In this document: one piece after another, positions 45,095 through 58,902 of the stretch | How the letters are laid out: each line of letters begins with the position of its first letter | Position numbering within the stretch: position 1 is the first letter of the stretch | Origin: an uncultured Oscillospiraceae bacterium | GTDB taxonomy: Bacteria > Bacillota > Clostridia > Oscillospirales > Oscillospiraceae | DNA length: 64,000 bases | Direction: 5' to 3' | NCBI GenBank assembly: GCA_947627735.1 | Contig: CANQXG010000003.1 | Coordinates: forward strand, 1 to 64,000 | Notes under the pieces: model-generated | Database searches by the model: none | The model's input: the letters and a program-made list of their open reading frames with translations, nothing else | Told to the model about the DNA's origin: nothing | Program-made: the position numbers and the translations under genes

Positions 45095-45171
45095 CCGGGT
45101 GTGGCGAAGTTTGGTATCGCGCCTGAATGGGGTTCAGGAGGCCGCTGGTTCAAGTCCAGTCACTCGGACCA
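45095..45171 (+). tRNA. tRNA-Pro(GGG)
   Basis: 77 nt with encoded CCA. Acceptor CCGGGTG pairs with CACTCGG (one G-T). Anticodon arm CCTGA-ATGGGGT-TCAGG gives GGG. T arm is CTGG-TTCAAGT-CCAG. The D arm is slightly atypical (GGCGAAGTTTGGTATCGC) compared with common bacterial tRNA-Pro. Confidence 0.9.
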
Positions 45172-45209
45172 AAGAGCAGGGGACAGCGAAAGCTGTCCCC
45201 TGCTCTTTG
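45172..45209 (+). terminator. tRNA-Pro terminator
   Basis: AAAGAGCAGGGGACAGC and its complement around GAAA, a 17-bp stem, ending TCTTT. Confidence 0.85.
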
Positions 45210-45237: not shown

Positions 45238-45266
45238 TTGACAAATCGGTGCGGCGCGGCTACAAT
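45238..45266 (+). promoter_or_regulatory. Promoter of the GG-leader peptide operon
   Basis: Consensus TTGACA (45238-45243), 17 bp, TACAAT (45261-45266). It lies about 60 bases before the first peptide start, which has GGAGGGAG. Confidence 0.85.
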
Positions 45267-45327
45267 TTAATCGGTTAAATCAAACGCGGGCCGGGGATAC
45301 GGCCCGGGAGGATCGGAGGGAGAGCGC

Positions 45328-45519
45328 ATGAACATAGAACTGGACGAAAAACAGCTGGAGGCCGTCACAGGCGGCAATACATCGGTCCCTTCCTGTTCGC
45401 CTGTCAAGTTCCGCTGCCCGAAGTGCGGCTATGTGTATGTGGCGGATGGCGCATTGATACCAAAGGTGCTCCGCTGCACGCGGTGCAAGGGGCCTTTGGT
45501 CAAAGTGAGGGACGAATGA
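45328..45519 (+). CDS. GG-leader zinc-ribbon peptide 1
   Basis: 63 residues. Leader MNIELDEKQLEAVTGG has the EKQLExVTGG form of bacteriocin-type double-glycine leaders cleaved by peptidase-containing ABC exporters. The remaining 47 residues carry CPKCG and CTRC, a zinc-ribbon/rubredoxin-like pair of CxxC knuckles, plus an extra Cys near the N-terminus of the core, and end VKVRDE. RBS GGAGGGAG. First of four tandem copies. No exporter, modification enzyme or immunity gene is in the window. A cytoplasmic zinc ribbon with a chance GG is the alternative, but the repeat of the motif in all four argues against it. Confidence 0.8.
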   Translation: MNIELDEKQLEAVTGGNTSVPSCSPVKFRCPKCGYVYVADGALIPKVLRCTRCKGPLVKVRDE

Positions 45520-45520
45520 G

Positions 45521-45712
45521 ATGGACGAGAAACTGAACGAAAAGCAGCTGGAGACCGTCACCGGCGGCGGGATAGATATCCCTTCCTATCCGCCCATCAA
45601 GTACCGCTGCACGAAGTGCGGCTACGAGTTCATGGCGGATGGCGGAATACAACCAAAGTCGCTCTATTGCGTACGATGCAAAGGGCCAGTGGTCAAAGTA
45701 AAGGATGAGTGA
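45521..45712 (+). CDS. GG-leader zinc-ribbon peptide 2
   Basis: 63 residues, leader MDEKLNEKQLETVTGG, core with CTKCG and CVRC, tail GPVVKVKDE. Very similar to peptide 1 along its whole length. Starts one base after the previous stop in the recurring junction TGAGATG, so translation is coupled; only a weak GAGGGA precedes it. Confidence 0.8.
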   Translation: MDEKLNEKQLETVTGGGIDIPSYPPIKYRCTKCGYEFMADGGIQPKSLYCVRCKGPVVKVKDE

Positions 45713-45713
45713 G

Positions 45714-45908
45714 ATGGACGAGAAACTGAACGAAAAGCAGCTGGAGAACGTGACCGGCGGGATAGATGTCCCTTCCCATCCGCCCGTCAAGTGCCGCTGC
45801 GTGAAGTGCGGCAGAGAGTATATGATAAAGGAAGATATAAACCTGACTAAGCTCCATTGCCCAGTAACAAGCTGCCACGGGACTTTGGTCAAAGTGAGGG
45901 ACGAATGA
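45714..45908 (+). CDS. GG-leader zinc-ribbon peptide 3
   Basis: 64 residues from ATG 45714 (an ATG at 45705 overlaps the preceding gene and is not needed). Leader MDEKLNEKQLENVTGG differs from peptide 2 at one position. Core has CVKCG but the second knuckle is CPVTSC (Cx4C) and an extra Cys stands next to the first, so metal binding may differ. Tail TLVKVRDE is conserved. Confidence 0.8.
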   Translation: MDEKLNEKQLENVTGGIDVPSHPPVKCRCVKCGREYMIKEDINLTKLHCPVTSCHGTLVKVRDE

Positions 45909-45909
45909 G

Positions 45910-46176
45910 ATGAACGAGGAGAAGAAAGATCTGCCGGGGATGGACCCTGAACAGGAGAAAGACCTGGAAAAGGTGACCGGCGGGCTGGAGGGGATCGAGG
46001 AATACATGGAGGTCCAGGCGTTTCGCGAGGCCTTTATCAAGGCCAACTGCAGCCACTGCGCGAAACGCGGCACAGATGACTGCACCTTTCCGAATGACAA
46101 TTATGCGGATGCGAAGGGCATGTATTACATGTTCAGGAACCGTCCGGGGGGATGCCCCTTCATCATCCCCAAGTGA
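45910..46176 (+). CDS. GG-leader cysteine-containing peptide 4
   Basis: 88 residues. Longer leader with DLEKVTGG (GG at residues 24-25), then an unrelated 63-residue core with four cysteines (CSHC, DDC, GGC) and a DNYADAKGMYYMFRNRPGG segment. Shares the TGAGATG junction with peptide 3, so it belongs to the same operon but is not a copy of the first three. Function unknown. Confidence 0.75.
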   Translation: MNEEKKDLPGMDPEQEKDLEKVTGGLEGIEEYMEVQAFREAFIKANCSHCAKRGTDDCTFPNDNYADAKGMYYMFRNRPGGCPFIIPK

Positions 46177-46311: not shown

Positions 46312-47247
46312 ATGGTACTGCTCATCATCCTGATCGTCGTCGCGGCGGCGGTGCTGGCCGTCGGCTATGCTGCCTACCGCATCCCCTTTTATCACCCCGA
46401 GCACAACGAAAGCCCCTATGACTTGCCCCCGGAGGAGCAGTATGATCCCTACCGGGAGGACATGACGGCGCTGATCTCCGAGATGGACGCCGTCCCCTTC
46501 GAGCCGGCGGAGATCGCCGCCCGGGACGGGACGAAGCTGTTTGGCCGCTGCTACCACGCCGCCGACGGCGCGCCGGTGCTGATCGGCTTCCACGGCTTCA
46601 AGAGCACCGCCCTGCGGGACATGTCCGGCGCGGGGAAGCTGGCCCGGCAGATGGGCATGAACATCCTCCTGGTGGACCAGCGCTCCCACGGCAGGAGCGA
46701 GGGCAAGACCATCTCCTTCGGCGTGAAGGAGCGCTTCGACTGCCTGAGCTGGGCCAAATACGCGGCCCGGCGCTGGCCCGGCGCGCCCATCGTGCTGGCG
46801 GGGGTGTCTATGGGCGCGGCCACGGTGTTGATGGCCGCCGATCTGGACCTGCCGGGGGAGGTGAAGGGCATCATCGCCGACTGCCCCTACTCCGATCCCT
46901 CCGCCATCATCAAGAAGGTGGGGCGGGACAGCATGGGGCCGGCGTCCATAGCGCTCTACCCATTCATCCTGCTGGGCGCACGGCTGTACGGCGGCTTCAG
47001 CCTGACGGCTGCCTCCCCGGTGAAGGCGGTGCGCGGCGCGAAGGTGCCCATCCTGCTGATCCACGGGGAGGACGACCGGTTCGTCCCCTGCGACATGAGC
47101 CGGGAGATATACGACGCCTGCGCCGGCGAAAAGACCCGCCTCACCATCCCCGGTGCGCCCCACGCCATCGCCTACGTCCTGGACCCGGACAGGTATGGCC
47201 AGGCCGTCCGGCAGTTTTTGCTCTCGCTGGGTCTGGACGTGAAGTGA
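46312..47247 (+). CDS. Membrane-anchored alpha/beta hydrolase
   Basis: 311 residues. One N-terminal helix (residues 2-22), then an alpha/beta hydrolase fold: GFHGFKS (oxyanion), GVSMGAAT with the nucleophile Ser, HGEDDRFVP with Asp, and a C-terminal His (GAPHAIAY). Resembles YqkD/BAAT-like hydrolases of Firmicutes. The start is odd: the good AGAGGAGAG site fits a GTG at 46298 in another frame, which reads only eleven codons, while the ATG 46312 has no close site. A one-base indel in the first codons would join the two. Confidence 0.85.
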   Translation: MVLLIILIVVAAAVLAVGYAAYRIPFYHPEHNESPYDLPPEEQYDPYREDMTALISEMDAVPFEPAEIAARDGTKLFGRCYHAADGAPVLIGFHGFKSTALRDMSGAGKLARQMGMNILLVDQRSHGRSEGKTISFGVKERFDCLSWAKYAARRWPGAPIVLAGVSMGAATVLMAADLDLPGEVKGIIADCPYSDPSAIIKKVGRDSMGPASIALYPFILLGARLYGGFSLTAASPVKAVRGAKVPILLIHGEDDRFVPCDMSREIYDACAGEKTRLTIPGAPHAIAYVLDPDRYGQAVRQFLLSLGLDVK

Positions 47248-49405: not shown

Positions 49406-49534
49406 TACACTGAATTGTTATAGTGTGAATTTCATCTCATTTTGACGGAAAATGGAAATATGCCCCGGATGGGGATAGGGATAGACGCAGCGGCGCCTGG
49501 CGGGGGAGCGGTCCCCGTAAGGGAGGAAATGTAC

Positions 49535-50416
49535 ATGGAAAGCAAGAGAAGGACAGCGGCAAGAGTTCTGGCGTGGCTTCTGTGCCTGTTGATGGTGCTG
49601 TCGGTGTTCGACGGCACGGGCCTGCTGGGTGGCCAGGCATTGGCGGCGGCGGGAACGGCGGGCGGCACGCCGGGGGTCAACCAGCGGGAGGCCGACCCCA
49701 GCACCATGGAGACCTACACGACCGCGCTGTTGAGCGAGGATACCGGCTCCCGCTACGCCGGCCGCGTCTGGACGGACAAGACCGTGTTCGCCTACGGCGC
49801 GGACCAGAACTCCGGCGGCACGGAGGGCAACCGCATCTCCCTGACGGCCGATCTGGACGGCTATGAAAGCTCCATGGGATTCACCTCTGACTTTGCCCAC
49901 GTGTTCAGCGCTCTGACCAGTTCTCAGGTGGTGAACGAATATCCCCCCACCCCCATCGACATGGTCCTGGTGCTGGATATCTCGTCGTCTATGAGCGACG
50001 ATAAGACCATACCGGCTGTCGAACCATATGCGGAGCTGGCTGCGCAGGGCGCGATAACGCACACAAGGTTTTTGAACCTGATCTATTCGGCGGACCGCAT
50101 CATTACCCAGCTGATGAAGAACAACCCGGAAAACCGGGTCAGCGTGGTGGTCTATGACCGCCGGGCCACTGTCATCATGCCCTTGGCCCACTATGAAGCG
50201 AACACGACGCCCGTCTCTCAGATCGGCGGCGGCAAAGATTACGTATACGATACGGATTATCTGAAGGATGGTGTGGCAGACGGGACCGCCCACAAGAACG
50301 CCACTGCTCACGCGAAACTAAAAGATCTTGTCTTCGGATATCTCTGCCCGTATTTTGACGGCCATAGTGGTGAACCTGTGACTGTCACTCAGGCCCGCGT
50401 GGTGGCGACGCCGTGA
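49535..50416 (+). pseudogene. Giant surface adhesin, 5' part (signal peptide and start of vWA domain)
   Basis: 293 codons from ATG 49535, chosen for the GGGAGG eight bases upstream; an ATG at 49529 is also in frame. Residues 1-37 are a Gram-positive signal peptide (basic start, hydrophobic core, ALAAAG cleavage). From about 140 a von Willebrand A domain begins with the MIDAS motif DISSSMS. The frame stops at 50414-50416 inside the domain. The rest of the domain, with the other MIDAS residues, continues in the -1 frame in the next entry, so a single-base indel has split one gene. No slippery heptamer is present at the site. Confidence 0.85.
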
Positions 50417-53400
50417 ACGGCAGGAAAAGCGTACAGCGCATCGACGGCACCAACACCCACGCGGGCCTGGCCGCCGGTCTGGAGCAGCTGGCCAATGCCA
50501 AGGACACCACCCTGACGGCGGCGCTGCACAACGGGCAGACGGCCACCGTGCCCCGCATCCCGGCGGCCATCATCATGACCGACGGCGGCACGAACTCAGT
50601 GGCAAACGGTCCCTGGTATGCCCCGGACTATGCCATCCCGATGCAGGATTCCAGCCAAAAGAACGCCTGGTCCAGTGTGGTGGTGACCCAGTACCTGCTG
50701 ACGGCGGCCTACCTGAAATCCGCCGTGGAGAAGAATTACAGCGCATACATGGCCCTTAACGGCGGGGAGGGCCAGGACCTCCCCGTTTACACCGTAGGCG
50801 TCGACCTGCGGGACGGCATAGGGACCGACGCACGGGACGACTCGTGGGTCCCGGCGCGTCTGTTCCCGATGATGGACCCGGCGAAGTATTTTAAGGGCGG
50901 CAGCGATATCCCTCTGACCGCCGATCATCCCACCGAACCGAAAGGGATCCCGCTTGGCAGTGATGACAAAAATAAAGAGCTTATCACTGACGCCTATAAC
51001 AACTGGACGGGTTGGTCTCAGAGTGAAAATGCAACTATAACTAACCAGTTCCCTGTTGCGGCGACAGGGAATGAGGGCTGGTTCCTGCAGGGAGCGGGCC
51101 ATGACTTCGGTGAGCTGGGGAACGGATACGCCCCCTATATCATCCCCTTTGAACAGGACAGCGCAAACACACAGGACATCCCGCTGGTGCCCTGGTCCGG
51201 TGAACTGGGCGGCATTTCCTACTCCGGTTTGCAATATAACCTCAAATGGCACAGCTGGACAGAGCCCTTGGGGCCCGACCTGACAAAACAAAAAACGACG
51301 CCTTTTGCTGAGGATATAGATGGCACCGCCACGTTCCCATCCTTTACCGAGGCGAAGGAAAGCGGCTATGCCACATATCTCGCCGGAAGAAGCATCACAA
51401 ACAACGATGCATTGGCAGGGGAAGCCGCGCATGAAAACACCCGCGATGTCGAGGCCGTCACCCAGGCCGACATGGAGCGGAACATCAACTACGTCACCAC
51501 GTTCTACGATGTTTCCTCCGCCCAGATGGACTCCATCTTCGAGAGCATCCTCAGCGAGGTCATCGGCCAGGTGTTCGTGCCCGTGTCCGGCGATAACGAC
51601 GCGGGCGTGGGCGACGCGCTGACCTATCAGGACCCCATCGGCGACCTGATGGAGGTGAAGAACCGCTCCATCACCGCCACGCCTCACCACACCGCCGAGG
51701 ATGTGGAGGAGGTCGAGACCACCTACGACATGTCCATGCTGCTGTTCGGCGAGATGCACGGCATGGTCCGCTCCGGCGTGTACGACTTCCAGTGGAACGA
51801 CGCGTACATGAAAGCCAAGTTTCCGGGTGACGCGGGACATGAGGCCATGCCCATGGGCTGGTACAGGGGCGAACCCACAGATGAAGTGGTGGAGTATTCC
51901 GAAAAGGAATATCCCGAAGACTGCTCCAGCGTGGAGGATGCCTGGGCGAACGGCTGGGTGTATCGGTTCGACTTCCAGACCCTGAAGCAGTATGTGCCCA
52001 TCGCCGGCGACGCGGCCACCCCGGACGCGATGAAGGACCAGCAGAAGCACACGGTCTATACCATCTACCGCTTCGCCTGCAGCAAAACGGACCGGAATAT
52101 GCTCCGGCGCAACCCGGTCTATGGCTCTGTGCCCCAGCCGCTGCTGGACAAGTGGGCCGCCCACGGGGACGATTACCCCGTGGGGAACAGCGAATACGCC
52201 TCCACGCCCGGCGTGTTCCGTCTCAGCGACATCCGGGTGTGGGTGGAGGAGTACGGCGACTTCGTGGACACGGACGGCGCCATCACGCCCACCCAGGCCT
52301 ACTCCAGCTCCCTGTATGTGAACGTGCCCGCCGCGGCGCTGCCCACCCAGCTGGCGGAGATCACCATGGGGCCGGATGGTGTGCTCAGCTATAAGGAAAC
52401 CTCCGCCCAGCCCCTGCGGCTGTTCTATGCCGTGGGCCTGGAAGATGAGCTGCTGACGAAGGACCCTGTTGACGGCCACGTCACCGGCGTGGACATCGCC
52501 GCCATCCCCATGGAGTACCTCCAGCAGCACCGGGACAGCCAGAACCGGATCTGGTTCTGGTCCAACTTCTACAGCAACACCACCTATAACGGCTACGGCA
52601 CCTGGTCGGGCGGCGTGACCCGGGGCGACCCCACGGTGAGCTTCTCCCCCAGCGGCGACAACCGGTACTATGTGTTCCAGAAGCCCCTGCCCCTGTTCGC
52701 CCATGCCTACCGGGTGGTGAACGGCCAGCTGATGGCCGTGGACAACAAGGGCGTAAAAGCGGAGGACGCCTGGACCGACAAGACCAAGGGCGGCAACGGC
52801 ACGACCACATGGGAGGAAAACAACGGCGTCTCGCAGCGGGCCGGCTGGGTCGGCGGCGAGTACCTGGGCACCTTCGCCAGTGCGGCGGATTTCAAGGGTC
52901 AATATAAGGAAGAACAGGAGGGCAAGATCGTCTTCCTGCGGGAGGACCTGCTGGACCATGTCACTTCCTCGGGCAGCGGCTACGCGCCCGGCTCCAAGTC
53001 CTTCTCCTCCGATGATTTCTACTTCCTGCTGGTGGAGTACTATATGCCTGAGCCGGGCACCGAGGGCAAGGACATAAACGACAATACTGTGGATGGGACC
53101 ACCGGCGGGCACATGGTGCAGTACGCCATCACCCGCAAGGGCAACGAGTTCGGCTCCGGCCTGAACGCGGACATCGACAGCAGCGACATGCTGTGCTGGA
53201 CCGATATGAACTTCCACACCTGGAAGGACGAAACGGGCCTCACTACGTCGGAGATCCGGTATAACCCCCACTCCACCACCGGCGACAGCACCCGGGGCGA
53301 ACCCACCTGGGAGAAGCTGGCCGGGCCTGAGGAAGAGCTGGAAAGCTATCTGAGTGGATTGGGCATCGATGATGTAGATGCAGAAATGACCTATTGGATG

Positions 53401-56400
53401 CAGCTGCGGGAGCAGATGCATGATGTGCTGCTGTCGGCGGACGACGACCACAACGGCAGCGTGGACCGTACCGAGTATAACAGCCACTTCCACTGGGCGC
53501 TGGCGGCCAAGACCGGCGGCCTGCGCACCGGCGACATGGGCCAGAACGTGCGGGTCAAGAGCAATAACGTGACCGGCACGGCGGGGACATACTATGTGCC
53601 CACTCTGTCGGCCAGCTCCGGCACCGGCGGCGACGTGGTCATCGACAACTACCTGGGCAACAACGGCCGGATGTGGGTGTCCGACCAGCTGGTGCTGGTG
53701 ACCAAGACCGTGAACGGCTCCGCCTCCAGCCCCGCCGACCGCAACGAGGAATTTCAGTTCCAGCTGTTCGTCTCCGGCATGGCCGGCAAGACCGTCAGCG
53801 CCATCCGCGTGCAGCGGGACCGGTTCACCGGTATGTGGCGGCGGCGTCTGGCCACCATCGCGGTGCAGACCGATAACCGCGGCCTTTTGAAGGACTCGGA
53901 TGGCCGTCAGCTGGCGCGGGTGGATGAGGACGGCAAGCCTTGGACGGAGGAAGAAGGCGGCTATTACGTCTGGGCCGAGAGGACCGGCGACACCAACAGC
54001 ATCACCCTGTACGTGGCCTCCGAGGTGGAGGAGGAATCCGGCACCGCCGCCATGGGCGGCTATACCGAGTACGTCACCGCGGCGCAGCTGCACTCCGTGG
54101 ACGACCCGGGCGAGAATGTGCAGGAGATCCCCGAGGGGTCCGATTACGAGGCCGGGAACATCCAGTTCTGGGCCGAGCCGGGGACGGTCTACCTCGTCCC
54201 GGTGGGGAAAGTCGGCCAGGATTGGACGGGCACAAAAGAAGCGATAGATGCCCTGGGGCTGACGCCCTTCAAGGGCAATTTCCCCATCACCGTCATGGAC
54301 CATGACCGGGACGAGAACCTGCGCTCCGGCATGGTGATGGAAAGCCCCTTCTCCGTGCGCACTACTCATCTGACCGAGACGGTCAAGTTCGGGCTGGACG
54401 AACAGGACGAACTGTTTGACGACACCGCCTTCCAGAACCCGAGAAGGACGACTTTGTCCGACGGCACGTTCTTCGAGAGCAAGAGGTATGAGCCAGAGGA
54501 TATCCGGCCCGCCACGGCCCAGTTCACCCTCCGGGACGGCGAGGGCCTGCTGTTCAACGGCCTGGACGATCTGGCCAGCTTCCGGGCCACCGAGCATCTG
54601 ACCGAGGACCAGATCAGCCGGGGCTATGGCCTGGACAGCGTCCGTCTGGTCCAGAACATCAACTATGTGGACTATCTGCTGGCGGACGCTCCGCAGGAGA
54701 AGGTCAAAAACACCACGAACTGGGGCACTATGGACCCGGGCTACGCCCAGGTGCTGGATTACTATCGCTTTGAAAACGTCAACGACGAAACGGAGCACGG
54801 CCTCGTCACCAACCTGGGGCCGGAATCCGGCACGCCCAACAACGCCGCTTACTTCAACCCGGAGAGGAATGCCTACTCCGTGTACGGCGACACCAGCGCC
54901 CAGGAGAAGGCGGCCCACTTCTATAACTCCCTGGCGCCCCAGTCCCTGACCATCCAGAAGGTGCTCCAGACCGAGGACGGCTCGGAGCCGACCGCGGAGG
55001 ATCTGGCCCAGGAGTTCGCCTTCACCGCCGACTTCACCTTCACAGATGGGCCGACGGGCGACACGGCGTGGACGTTCCCCATGACCCGGTATTACCGCAA
55101 TGGGCAGCCCTATCCCGAAACGGATACCATCCCCCGGGAACAGCTGCGCATCAGCGCGGACGCCGCCCTGGATGGCGCCTCTCTGGAGGAGGACGATATC
55201 GCGCCCATGGCCGAGGACCTGCCCCCGGTGGTCACCGGCTATATGCGTGTGACCGGCGATGACAAGACCGGCGACGACATCTACCACGCCCAGTTCGGCT
55301 CCGTGAAGGACAATGGCGACGGCATCTACACATGGCAGCCCGACGTGGAGCCGGACGGATACAAGTTCAAGCTCAGAGGCGGCGAGAAGCTGGTCATCTA
55401 CGGCCTGCCCATCGGCGCGGGCTATACCGTGGACGTGGTGGAGGAGGCTCTGTCCGGCTTCACGATCGAGCCGGCGGACCGCCATGGCACGCTGACGGTG
55501 GCCCCCGATTCCGAGGGCAGGGCGGAGATCACCTTTGTCAACACCAAGCAGTCCGCCAGGCCGGTGGACGTGTCGCTGGATGTGGAAAAGATATTCAACA
55601 CGCTGACCCCGGAGGCCCCGTCGTCGGCGGAGTTCCGCTTTACGCTGACGCCGGTCGCGGGCAATCCCCCGGACGACCCGGTGCCGCCGGAGGGAAAGAC
55701 CGGATCGGTCATGGTGACCGCCGGCGGCAGCGGCCAGGCGACCGTGCTGGACGGCGTCGAATACAAGACCCCCGGGGTGTATGAGTACATCCTGCGGGAG
55801 GAGCTGGGCACGGCCCCCGGCGTGAAGTACGATGGCACCGTTCATCGGATCAGGGTGACGGTCACGGAGGTGGCGGGGATGCCCGCCCACCTGGAGGCGA
55901 CGATCACCGACGTGGACGGCGATGCCGAGATCGGGGATGTGACCACCAACTACACCGGCGACCCCGGTACCTATTCCGCTGCGTTCAGGTCCTTTACCAA
56001 CACGTATAAGAAAGGGTCCGCCTACGTGACCCTGGAGGGCGTGAAGACGTTCATCGGCGACGAGCTGGAGGCCGGCCAGTTCACCTTCGTGCTGACCCCC
56101 GTCAGCGGCAGCTATGCCGAGAACGAGGAAGGACCTATGGATGATGAAGGCGAGGGCGAGGAGAACGGCCCGGAGATCATAGACGACGCCGCTGCCACCG
56201 CCAGCCCCGAACCGGAGGCGACGGCGGAGCCGGAGGCCAGTCCTGAGCCGGAGGCGACCTCTGAGCCGGAGGCCAGCCCGGAACCGGAGCAGACGCCTGA
56301 GGCAACAGCCGAGCCGGAGGTAGACCCCAACGAGCAGGAGGGGCCGTCCTTTACCTCCCTGGAGCCGGTCGATGGGGCGGAGGGAAACCCTGCGCCCACC

Positions 56401-58902
56401 GAACCCGACCAGGAGCCGGTCGATGACCCGGCCCAGACCGATCCCGCCCCCGACGGCGGGGAGAATACGCCCGCGCCCGGTGAGGGCGACGGGTCTGCGG
56501 AGGGCACGGACCCCACCGAGACCCCCGCGCCCGCCGAAACTCCCGCGCCCATGGAAACTCCCGTACCCACGGAAACCCCGGAGCCGGACGCCACCGACGA
56601 GCCGGACGCCTCCCCGGAGCCCACGGCCACCCCCGGGCCGGAGGATATGCCCTCCGATGGGGACGAGATGTCCCCCGAGGACGAGATCGCGCCCATCGCG
56701 GATATCCAGCTGATGGATATACCCATGCCGGAGGAGGCGACAGATAAGGGCCAGCCGACCGTAAAGGCTACCGCCACCAACGACGCGGACGGCCGCTTCC
56801 GCTTCGGCAGCATCGAATTTGACAGGGCCGGCGAGTATGTGTACCAGGTCATGGAGGAGCTTCCCGGCGGCACCGTCCAGGAGCTGGGCGGCCACGTCAT
56901 CTACTGGGTGAAGGTCACGGTCACGGAGGATGAAAACGGCGACCTGTGGGCCGCCGTGGAGGTCCGCCAGAACGCCCTGGACGGACCGGTGGCCGACCTG
57001 CGGTTCGCCAACATCGAGACCAAGCCCGTGAAGACGGAACCCGACCCTGGCCCGGATATGCCGGTGAAGGTGGGAAGCAAGATCACCTACCGGGTCACCT
57101 GGTACAACGACGGGACGCCAGATCAGGACAAGTACACCGTCTATGTGGCCGACCGGCTGGACCCCGGTCTGGACTATGTGCCGGACAGCGCCCTGACTTT
57201 CACCGGCGCGGCGCCCGCTGGGACGCCCGTCCCCCACGACGGGATAGACGCCCAGGTCACATATGAGGACCACACCCTGAACTGGACCATCACGGGCACC
57301 AAGCCCGGGGACTACGGCTACGTGGAATTTCAGGCCACGGTCAACGCCAACGCGAAGTTCGACTGGAAGTACTACGATGACAACGGCATCTATTCCGATC
57401 CGCCCACAGGGCCGTCCGGCGTGGGCGGTGCCGAGGACTGGATGGTCTGGAACCAGGCCGGCGTGAAGGTGGACGACGGCAGCTGGAAGTGGACCGACGA
57501 GATCAAGAACCCCACCTGGGAGCCGGAGAAGACCGCCGATCCCGCCGACAAGAGCGGCGTGCACGTGGGCGACCGGATCACCTATAAGGTCACCTGGCGC
57601 AACTACCTGACCGAACAGGCGAACATCACCGTCACCGACGTGCTGGACACCGGCGTGACCTATCAGGAGGGTTCCGCCAAGGCCTATTACAGCGACGGCA
57701 CGGACATGCTCATAGACGGCAGTTATGACCCGGACAGCCGCACCCTCACCTGGAATTTGGGTCCGCAGACGGAAGGTACATCCGGCTACGTGGAATTTAC
57801 AGTCACTGTGAACGCCAACGCCCAGTATGGGGACAGCGCCGTGGCGAACGACGCCACGGTGAAGGTGGACAACACCTCCCACCAGAGCAACGAGGTGGTC
57901 CACTACCTGAATGGCCACCTGAAGGTGACGAAGATCGTCCGGGGCGAGGGCGGCGAGCAGGACAAGGACTTCGCCTTCACCGTCACCCTGACGAAGCCGG
58001 CGGATATGTCGGAGGAGGAATGGACCGCCTCGTGGGCGGACGCTGAGCGCGCCTATACCGGCCAGGGCGGCAAGGCGGACGGCACCCTCACCTTCAGTCC
58101 CGACGGCGCCGGCGGCTATACCGCCTCGTTCAGCCTGCGCCACGGCCAGAGCATCACCATCTCCGGGCTGAGCAGCGGCGCGGGCTATACCGTGACCGAG
58201 ACCAATGGCGACGGCTATACCGTCACGGTGACCGGCGGCACCGGCGCGGTGTCCGCCCAGACGCCGCCGGAGGCCGTGTTCACCAACACCAAGGGCGGCC
58301 AGACACCGCCTCCGGAGAGGACCCCCGGACCGGATGAAACGCCTAAACCCGAGGAAACACCCAATCCCGAGGAAACGCCCAATCCCGGCGTGACCCCCGG
58401 CCCCACACCCTCCGGCGGCCCCCACAAGGTGGAGACCGATCCCGGCGACGGGAAGACCGTGACGGTGGGCCAGATCATCACCTACCGCATCTACTGGCAG
58501 AACTACAAGTCCGACCCGGCGCCGGTGACCATCCGGGACCCGCTGGACGTGGGGCTGGACTTCTACTGGGCCAGCGACGGCGGGGTATATGACCCGGACA
58601 GCCGCACGGTGACCTGGCACCTGCCCGAGCAGAGCGGCGGCGCCAGCGGCTATGTGACGGTGCAGGCGGTGGTGAACGCCAACGCCCTGCTCAAAGGTAT
58701 GGTGCAGAACCAGGCCTTCGTGGCGGTCAACGGCGACGAGGAGCAGCCCACGGAGCAGCCCAAAAACCCGCTGCCCAGCCGGGTGCCCGCCACCGGGGAC
58801 GGCAGCCGGCCCGGCCTGTGGCTGGCGCTGCTGACGGCGTCCCTCGCGGGCCTCGCCCTCGTGAGCCTCGCAGCCCCCCGGCGCAGAAAAAAGAGCAAAT
58901 AA
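50413..58902 (+). CDS. Giant surface adhesin, 3' part (vWA remainder, pilin domains, sorting signal)
   Basis: 2829 codons; the GTG at 50413 is only formal, because the segment continues the vWA domain (Thr15, then TDGG with Asp57). Domains seen later: an EF-hand-like loop DDDHNGSVDRTEY at residues 1010-1022, Cna-B-like modules near 1100 and 1510, a FctA-type pilin isopeptide domain about 1716-1850, a second FctA-like domain from about 1868 that is split by a 200-residue Pro/Glu-rich stretch (1926-2110), DUF11-like domains near 2200, 2370 and 2673, and a further Cna-B module near 2500. The end is a sorting signal VPATGDGS, hydrophobic helix, RRRKKSK. With the 5' part the intact protein is about 3.1 kilo-residues, covalently attached to the wall, probably an adhesin or pilus-tip protein. 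No sortase is adjacent. Confidence 0.88.
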   Translation: MNGRKSVQRIDGTNTHAGLAAGLEQLANAKDTTLTAALHNGQTATVPRIPAAIIMTDGGTNSVANGPWYAPDYAIPMQDSSQKNAWSSVVVTQYLLTAAYLKSAVEKNYSAYMALNGGEGQDLPVYTVGVDLRDGIGTDARDDSWVPARLFPMMDPAKYFKGGSDIPLTADHPTEPKGIPLGSDDKNKELITDAYNNWTGWSQSENATITNQFPVAATGNEGWFLQGAGHDFGELGNGYAPYIIPFEQDSANTQDIPLVPWSGELGGISYSGLQYNLKWHSWTEPLGPDLTKQKTTPFAEDIDGTATFPSFTEAKESGYATYLAGRSITNNDALAGEAAHENTRDVEAVTQADMERNINYVTTFYDVSSAQMDSIFESILSEVIGQVFVPVSGDNDAGVGDALTYQDPIGDLMEVKNRSITATPHHTAEDVEEVETTYDMSMLLFGEMHGMVRSGVYDFQWNDAYMKAKFPGDAGHEAMPMGWYRGEPTDEVVEYSEKEYPEDCSSVEDAWANGWVYRFDFQTLKQYVPIAGDAATPDAMKDQQKHTVYTIYRFACSKTDRNMLRRNPVYGSVPQPLLDKWAAHGDDYPVGNSEYASTPGVFRLSDIRVWVEEYGDFVDTDGAITPTQAYSSSLYVNVPAAALPTQLAEITMGPDGVLSYKETSAQPLRLFYAVGLEDELLTKDPVDGHVTGVDIAAIPMEYLQQHRDSQNRIWFWSNFYSNTTYNGYGTWSGGVTRGDPTVSFSPSGDNRYYVFQKPLPLFAHAYRVVNGQLMAVDNKGVKAEDAWTDKTKGGNGTTTWEENNGVSQRAGWVGGEYLGTFASAADFKGQYKEEQEGKIVFLREDLLDHVTSSGSGYAPGSKSFSSDDFYFLLVEYYMPEPGTEGKDINDNTVDGTTGGHMVQYAITRKGNEFGSGLNADIDSSDMLCWTDMNFHTWKDETGLTTSEIRYNPHSTTGDSTRGEPTWEKLAGPEEELESYLSGLGIDDVDAEMTYWMQLREQMHDVLLSADDDHNGSVDRTEYNSHFHWALAAKTGGLRTGDMGQNVRVKSNNVTGTAGTYYVPTLSASSGTGGDVVIDNYLGNNGRMWVSDQLVLVTKTVNGSASSPADRNEEFQFQLFVSGMAGKTVSAIRVQRDRFTGMWRRRLATIAVQTDNRGLLKDSDGRQLARVDEDGKPWTEEEGGYYVWAERTGDTNSITLYVASEVEEESGTAAMGGYTEYVTAAQLHSVDDPGENVQEIPEGSDYEAGNIQFWAEPGTVYLVPVGKVGQDWTGTKEAIDALGLTPFKGNFPITVMDHDRDENLRSGMVMESPFSVRTTHLTETVKFGLDEQDELFDDTAFQNPRRTTLSDGTFFESKRYEPEDIRPATAQFTLRDGEGLLFNGLDDLASFRATEHLTEDQISRGYGLDSVRLVQNINYVDYLLADAPQEKVKNTTNWGTMDPGYAQVLDYYRFENVNDETEHGLVTNLGPESGTPNNAAYFNPERNAYSVYGDTSAQEKAAHFYNSLAPQSLTIQKVLQTEDGSEPTAEDLAQEFAFTADFTFTDGPTGDTAWTFPMTRYYRNGQPYPETDTIPREQLRISADAALDGASLEEDDIAPMAEDLPPVVTGYMRVTGDDKTGDDIYHAQFGSVKDNGDGIYTWQPDVEPDGYKFKLRGGEKLVIYGLPIGAGYTVDVVEEALSGFTIEPADRHGTLTVAPDSEGRAEITFVNTKQSARPVDVSLDVEKIFNTLTPEAPSSAEFRFTLTPVAGNPPDDPVPPEGKTGSVMVTAGGSGQATVLDGVEYKTPGVYEYILREELGTAPGVKYDGTVHRIRVTVTEVAGMPAHLEATITDVDGDAEIGDVTTNYTGDPGTYSAAFRSFTNTYKKGSAYVTLEGVKTFIGDELEAGQFTFVLTPVSGSYAENEEGPMDDEGEGEENGPEIIDDAAATASPEPEATAEPEASPEPEATSEPEASPEPEQTPEATAEPEVDPNEQEGPSFTSLEPVDGAEGNPAPTEPDQEPVDDPAQTDPAPDGGENTPAPGEGDGSAEGTDPTETPAPAETPAPMETPVPTETPEPDATDEPDASPEPTATPGPEDMPSDGDEMSPEDEIAPIADIQLMDIPMPEEATDKGQPTVKATATNDADGRFRFGSIEFDRAGEYVYQVMEELPGGTVQELGGHVIYWVKVTVTEDENGDLWAAVEVRQNALDGPVADLRFANIETKPVKTEPDPGPDMPVKVGSKITYRVTWYNDGTPDQDKYTVYVADRLDPGLDYVPDSALTFTGAAPAGTPVPHDGIDAQVTYEDHTLNWTITGTKPGDYGYVEFQATVNANAKFDWKYYDDNGIYSDPPTGPSGVGGAEDWMVWNQAGVKVDDGSWKWTDEIKNPTWEPEKTADPADKSGVHVGDRITYKVTWRNYLTEQANITVTDVLDTGVTYQEGSAKAYYSDGTDMLIDGSYDPDSRTLTWNLGPQTEGTSGYVEFTVTVNANAQYGDSAVANDATVKVDNTSHQSNEVVHYLNGHLKVTKIVRGEGGEQDKDFAFTVTLTKPADMSEEEWTASWADAERAYTGQGGKADGTLTFSPDGAGGYTASFSLRHGQSITISGLSSGAGYTVTETNGDGYTVTVTGGTGAVSAQTPPEAVFTNTKGGQTPPPERTPGPDETPKPEETPNPEETPNPGVTPGPTPSGGPHKVETDPGDGKTVTVGQIITYRIYWQNYKSDPAPVTIRDPLDVGLDFYWASDGGVYDPDSRTVTWHLPEQSGGASGYVTVQAVVNANALLKGMVQNQAFVAVNGDEEQPTEQPKNPLPSRVPATGDGSRPGLWLALLTASLAGLALVSLAAPRRRKKSK
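56190..56660 (+). repeat. Pro/Glu-rich coding repeats of the adhesin
   Basis: Imperfect tandem codon repeats giving PEPEAT/AEPEAS units (56190-56310), then TPAPAE/TPEPD units (56520-56660). A shorter similar block is at 58300-58400. Such tracts are prone to length change and to assembly collapse. Confidence 0.85.

Follow-up and report, generated by a model that had tools for sequence, protein, structure and literature searches.

A tandem operon of double-glycine-leader cysteine peptides and its likely NHLM-type exporter in uncultured Oscillospiraceae

Double-glycine (GG) leader peptides are known as substrates of peptidase-containing ABC transporters (PCATs). One such system, NHLM (NHLP/Nif11) export with its components TIGR03794, TIGR03796 and TIGR03797, is characterized by a common leader, variable cores and several precursors per genome, and Haft 2010 argued that the exporter shapes leader conservation (available part of PMC2887384). 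The C39 domain of LahT, from Lachnospiraceae bacterium C6A11, recognises V-4, L-7 and L-12 before the GG, and this one tolerant protease accepts many cores (available part of PMC6363468). A PCAT has also been proposed to export MAM, a small protein with a GG site, in Faecalibacterium prausnitzii, with the PCAT gene linked in some strains and located elsewhere in others (available part of PMC8836110). Here we describe a four-gene operon of GG-leader cysteine peptides from an uncultured Oscillospiraceae bacterium (assembly GCA_947627735.1). It lies in the first 64,000 nucleotides of contig CANQXG010000003.1, the whole of which is referred to as the window.

The operon shares with NHLM export the common leader, the variable cores and the several precursors per genome, and both ABC genes found in its genome exceed the curated cut-offs of that system. 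However, the window leaders are only 16 to 25 residues long and match neither TIGR03793 nor TIGR03798, the cores have 47 to 63 residues with ribbon-like cysteines, and no linked modifying enzyme was found in a search confined to radical-SAM enzymes of the type at exporter locus L141 and to common neighbours. Both leader models were absent from the matches of the four window proteins at an E limit of 10, where HMMER filters drop most weak matches. The GG with V-4, L-7 and L-12, and one protease for many cores, recall LahT, although there the leaders are of the Nif11 type in a lanthipeptide cluster and here they are short and head orphan operons. Like MAM, these are GG-site proteins of gut Clostridia with an exporter gene located elsewhere, but the available part of PMC8836110 does not mention cores rich in cysteine or of ribbon type, nor a family with many members. 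No title or abstract on GG-leader zinc-ribbon peptides was found in a full-text literature search covering few subscription journals. PMC9200625 was the only paper with both phrases and is, in its available part, unrelated.

The preliminary description of this DNA had reported three near-copies and one divergent gene, each with an (E/K)xLExVTGG leader. The open reading frames (ORFs) bear this out. Copies 1 to 3 are paralogous ORFs of 63 to 64 residues (identity to copy 1 is 60% for copy 2 and 56% for copy 3), gene 4 has 88 residues, and the leaders of genes 1 to 4 end in KQLEAVTGG, KQLETVTGG, KQLENVTGG and KDLEKVTGG. The cores of copies 1 to 3, of 47 to 48 residues, do contain the two reported CxxC-type knuckles, the second being CxxxxC in copy 3. 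The reported consensus promoter, leading ribosome binding site and identical stop-start junctions are also present (Table 1). We conclude that the four genes share the one promoter-like site and would be read as one transcript; the promoter scan gave 3 sites at this level against 1.0 in shuffles. Gene 3 has an alternative in-frame ATG at 45705, with the start at 45714 favoured by homologues. A filter for the GG motif with start, Shine-Dalgarno-like site, size and cysteines returned 4 ORFs in the window and 0 for each of four scrambled motifs.

Table 1. Positions of the operon features in the window
Feature	Position	Strand	Basis
Promoter-like site, sigma-70-type, TTGACA-17-TACAAT	45238..45266	+	11/12 consensus matches; consensus only
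Shine-Dalgarno-like GGAGGG ahead of gene 1	45315..45320	+	sequence
Gene 1 (copy 1, ribbon-type)	45328..45519	+	ORF, profile comparison
Gene 2 (copy 2, ribbon-type)	45521..45712	+	ORF, low-confidence model
Gene 3 (copy 3, ribbon-type)	45714..45908	+	ORF, homologue comparison
Gene 4 (C4), GG-leader C-type precursor, CxxC-x7-C-x23-C, 63-residue core	45910..46176	+	ORF, profiles
TGAGATG stop-start junction	45517..45523; again at 45710, 45906	+	sequence

Maturation in trans had been suggested for these peptides, and the absence of a C39 exporter from the genome had been named beforehand as a finding that would refute the reading of the operon. The genome (G000; 2.36 Mb, 72 contigs, 86% complete) has a single Peptidase_C39 match, on contig C5 (1126-1515, 7.4e-35). 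The window is therefore without C39, which upholds the transporter part of the statement that no transporter or modifying enzyme is nearby; this check covered C39 only. The C5 gene is an NHLM_micro_ABC1 exporter (TIGR03796, 937 bits against a cut-off of 853). It is followed by a TIGR03797 partner gene (732 bits against 709) and preceded by a short HlyD-like gene with a partial match to TIGR03794, below cut-off. The exporter looks intact, and Q7, C13, H87 and D103 of the C39 alignment, which we take to be the catalytic positions, are invariant in 13 of 13 rows. Upstream of the HlyD-like gene are two GG-leader peptides, one with a C4-type core and one a zinc ribbon, so both core types of the window occur beside the exporter. 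This arrangement fits maturation in trans. Proteins with the same leader, which were also to be sought, were found on C5 and as further pairs on C51 (two C-type) and C10 (two ribbons). A search of the genome for the DNA pattern of LxxVxGG lacked specificity, with 225 and 219 sites compared with 119 and 116 for the backward control, and profiles were used instead.

The family is dispersed and genus-wide, beyond what the window alone could show. Among 35 genomes of the genus (25 of them at least 80% complete), C39 occurs in 14 and TIGR03796 above cut-off in 13, and profiles of the ribbon-type (Z) and C-type (C) peptides match 17 and 14 genomes at E<=0.01. At E<=1e-5, after Z matches with higher values in G008, G019, G021 and G031 were dropped, the two profiles together cover 15 genomes. 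Peptides and C39 then occur together in 11 genomes, peptides alone in 4 (G012, G014, G017, G023), C39 alone in 3 (G007, G009, G015) and neither in 17 (Fisher p=0.0012, relatedness ignored). The same counts for the 25 more complete genomes are 10, 1, 2 and 12 (p=0.0002, relatedness again ignored). The C profile has up to 27 matches per genome (G011; 25 in G032). One conserved ribbon subfamily, with the consensus TYxCPxCGxxIxASTRDxxVTCPNxxC, is present in 13 of the 35 genomes at E 4.3e-29 or better. In G000, G026 and G034 it is encoded shortly before the C39 gene or fragments of that gene. Counted against C39 it gives 10 genomes with both, 3 with the ribbon only, 4 with C39 only and 18 with neither (p=0.0011). 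G018 was excluded as a carrier, its match being a different peptide with a broken frame.

Homologues that keep the ribbon and lose the leader had been named as another refuting observation. None was found: every one of the 13 rows of the conserved subfamily keeps the GG and all four cysteines, and leaderless ribbons appeared only as weak matches in other proteins (three inspected). In the wider family the Z profile matches 6 of 200 genomes at E<=1e-4, with at most 31 candidates scored per genome; the 4 matches outside the genus align only from position 14 on, and matches that contain the leader are confined to the genus. Ribbon profile A7 matches 8 of 400 genomes, 3 of them outside the genus and two of these with a GG leader.

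The window leaders have hydrophobic residues at -4, -7 and -12 before a final GG, the pattern of double-glycine substrates. A census of 107 distinct GG peptides from loci of the genus was selected for -7, -4 and GG, leaving -12 free; -7 and -4 are accordingly hydrophobic in all, and -12 is hydrophobic in 88%. The census is biased since most loci were found by cysteine profiles, and because it demands four acidic residues in the leader it leaves out some members, among them the ribbon next to the exporter of G000. With that reservation, 94 cores have at least three cysteines, 1 has two and 12 have none; 85 have four or five, and cysteine makes up 7.9% of core residues. The 16 exporter loci taken alone contribute 40 peptides, of which 31 have at least three core cysteines, 8 none and 1 one or two, with -12 hydrophobic in 39. 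As far as sequence goes, the leaders match the published C39 recognition rule of V-4, L-7 and L-12 (available part of PMC6363468). The Z and C profiles align in hhalign only over the leader and the first CxxC, so the leader is common and the cores are unlike.

The cores themselves are less readily placed. The Pfam and NCBIfam matches found for the four proteins of the window are all under curated cut-offs, with Pfam ribbon models below gathering and gene 4 without a match. The nearest model is TIGR01847 bacteriocin_sig (copy 3, 15.5 against 15.7 bits). In alignment A5 all 16 rows keep the four cysteines, and a low-confidence model of copy 2 has strands at residues 26-30, 36-39 and 56-60. The top Foldseek rows for the ribbon core are weak matches to rubredoxin, PolD, sirtuin and MCM chains, in parts that are presumably their zinc domains. 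The ribbon sequence profile matches Rpo12, L37Ae and S27ae chains over the two cysteine knuckles; these zinc ribbons are intracellular and, unlike the window proteins, have no leader. Cores 1 to 3 thus appear weakly similar to zinc ribbons in predicted fold and in sequence, and they probably bind zinc. The C4-type core gave a low-confidence helical model, two weak sequence matches and no Foldseek match in the PDB, which does not show a new fold.

The paralogues seem to have diversified after duplication, judged on very little sequence. The ratio of nonsynonymous to synonymous substitution rates (dN/dS) suggests this because it is 0.60 and 0.87 between paralogues in the window and 0.95 across genomes, against 0.24-0.53 in five of six comparisons with orthologues of the congeners G025 and G027; the sixth, between nearly identical sequences, gave 0.72. 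All of these values come from tiny samples.

Exporter loci were also collected from a C39-domain scan of named genomes, of which the best 80 were kept. By record title (uncounted) these are mostly from Clostridia, Oscillospiraceae or Lachnospiraceae, and many are from animal-gut samples. A strict filter found 28 cysteine GG peptides in 16 of these loci, with 64 having none, and 0 with four scrambled motifs. Long peptide arrays occur, for example, at L151 (ribbons and C-type cores) and L223 (CxC-GGGG peptides). Single-linkage clustering of 93 exporter neighbourhoods, with L148-L150 excluded as duplicates of L141, L130 and L135, and with cluster names resting on one or two checked members each, gave as recurrent neighbours a short HlyD-like protein (85), a SpoIIE-type phosphatase (42), STAS (26) and radical-SAM (18). 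A SpoIIE-type phosphatase and a STAS-phosphotransferase (APH) fusion are found upstream of the exporter at L132:4174-7490, and the same clusters at L130, L135, L140 and L141, suggesting partner-switching control of export in this genus. GG-leader peptides with repeated CxC lie beside a radical-SAM gene at L223:4555-8439 (an array, CxCVxGGGG), L141:15063-15906 and L213:14041-14238, and form a separate, probably modified family using the same exporter. Arrays of GG-leader proteins of about 100 residues with few cysteines are located near NHLM exporters in genomes recorded as Lachnospiraceae (L168:13532-17052, L176:10083-14945) and have a common core with TGEL/TGEF, YGKxVK and VTVNG motifs.

The neighbours of the dispersed operons were compared as ORFs of at least 70 residues in 61 overlapping loci, mostly with 1.5 kb flanks, and this set has no gene shared by all of them. 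Three genes do recur. One, in G017, G018 and G023, encodes a 390-residue protein whose start resembles a signal peptide (L075:2005-3177 in G023); another, in G011, G017 and G032, encodes 328 residues with a single apparent membrane segment (L077:2215-3201 in G032); the third, in G000 and G027, is that of the window hydrolase.

The likely reading is of orphan GG-leader operons: their products would be metal-binding mini-proteins, cut and exported in trans. The sequences argue well for export and point to cleavage and metal binding. One transcript would give four GG-leader precursors, and the short acidic leader of each would dock through V-4, L-7 and L-12 in the C39 domain of the C5 exporter and be cut after the GG as the core exits the cell. 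Cores 1 to 3 would then fold outside as zinc ribbons around their four cysteines, and core 4 would be another four-cysteine mini-protein. Each species would have a changing set of cores, encoded by orphan operons at scattered chromosomal sites, with leader type and exporter in common and one conserved ribbon in addition, adjoining the exporter in some species.

Two alternatives retain secretion and give the cysteines another use. As precursors of ribosomally synthesized and post-translationally modified peptides, they would offer the cysteines to an enzyme whose gene lies elsewhere, for instance one of the radical-SAM or lanthipeptide kind. The radical-SAM family of the exporter neighbourhoods (two members checked in Pfam) would favour this, as would the several radical-SAM genes that adjoin CxC-GGGG or Nif11-like cysteine peptides and the description of TIGR03796 exporters with modified peptides (available part of PMC2887384). 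It is nevertheless improbable given the conserved ribbon-like pairing of the cysteines and the dispersed operons without a common gene. In a genome-wide search confined to the L141 radical-SAM, this enzyme is found in 7 of the 35 genomes and gave no match at E<=1e-20 in G000, G020, G024, G026 and G027, all of which encode Z or C peptides. The four cysteines could instead form two disulfides, as they do in some class II bacteriocins. The prevalence of four or five cysteines in the census and the lack of a convincing relative or fold match for the C-type core agree with this, but the Z cores have two ribbon-spaced knuckle pairs with strands predicted at low confidence, and many relatives come, by record title, from the animal gut, where free thiols last longer. 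We therefore consider disulfides unlikely.

That the proteins are intracellular zinc ribbons, the VTGG stretch being no export leader, is highly improbable. Their PDB sequence relatives are intracellular ribbons and fingers and secretion is predicted only, but the same leader heads unlike cores, obeys the PCAT rule at the unselected position -12, and occurs on peptides just upstream of C39 exporter genes. Secreted cores might also recover or withhold zinc as a ribosomal zincophore, without acting on cells. The many cores with at least three cysteines and the wide occurrence of the conserved ribbon would suit this role, which is quite improbable since cysteine-free members exist and chelation needs no core diversity.

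As a role for the exported mini-proteins we would doubtfully propose that they form an extracellular mixture with effects on neighbouring bacteria, in which the metal mainly holds the fold. A bacteriocin role is a guess because no obvious immunity gene is among the three recurrent neighbours, which were sought as ORFs of at least 70 residues only. With slightly less than even confidence, we suggest that gut Clostridia of one genus export a diversifying library of mini-proteins folded on metal, some of them zinc ribbons and others built on different four-cysteine cores. Orphan operons would encode them, a single NHLM exporter would carry them, and the conserved ribbon would be the constant member. 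Such a library would be an unmodified, metal-stabilised counterpart of prochlorosin-like combinatorial libraries. NHLM exporters were described via modified natural products and are commonly taken as a sign of them. If unmodified zinc ribbons are indeed the cargo, an intracellular fold has been recruited for secretion on a wide scale, and genome mining that starts from modifying enzymes would miss these peptides.

Several further features were observed around these loci. Alpha/beta hydrolases flank the window operon (46312-47247) and the exporter operon (L032:5921-6859) and are 59% identical over 303 residues; the G027 peptide operon (L144) also has an alpha/beta hydrolase nearby. The promoter-like site of the window operon starts 66 bases downstream of a tRNA-Pro gene (45095-45171). 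A 17-base perfect inverted repeat with a GAAA loop (45171-45208) begins at the last base of this gene and is possibly its terminator. Farther along the window, overlapping ORFs at 49442-50416 and 50413-58902 resemble a single large cell-wall protein, rich in repeats and lying in two frames; the layout looks like a frameshift or an overlap.
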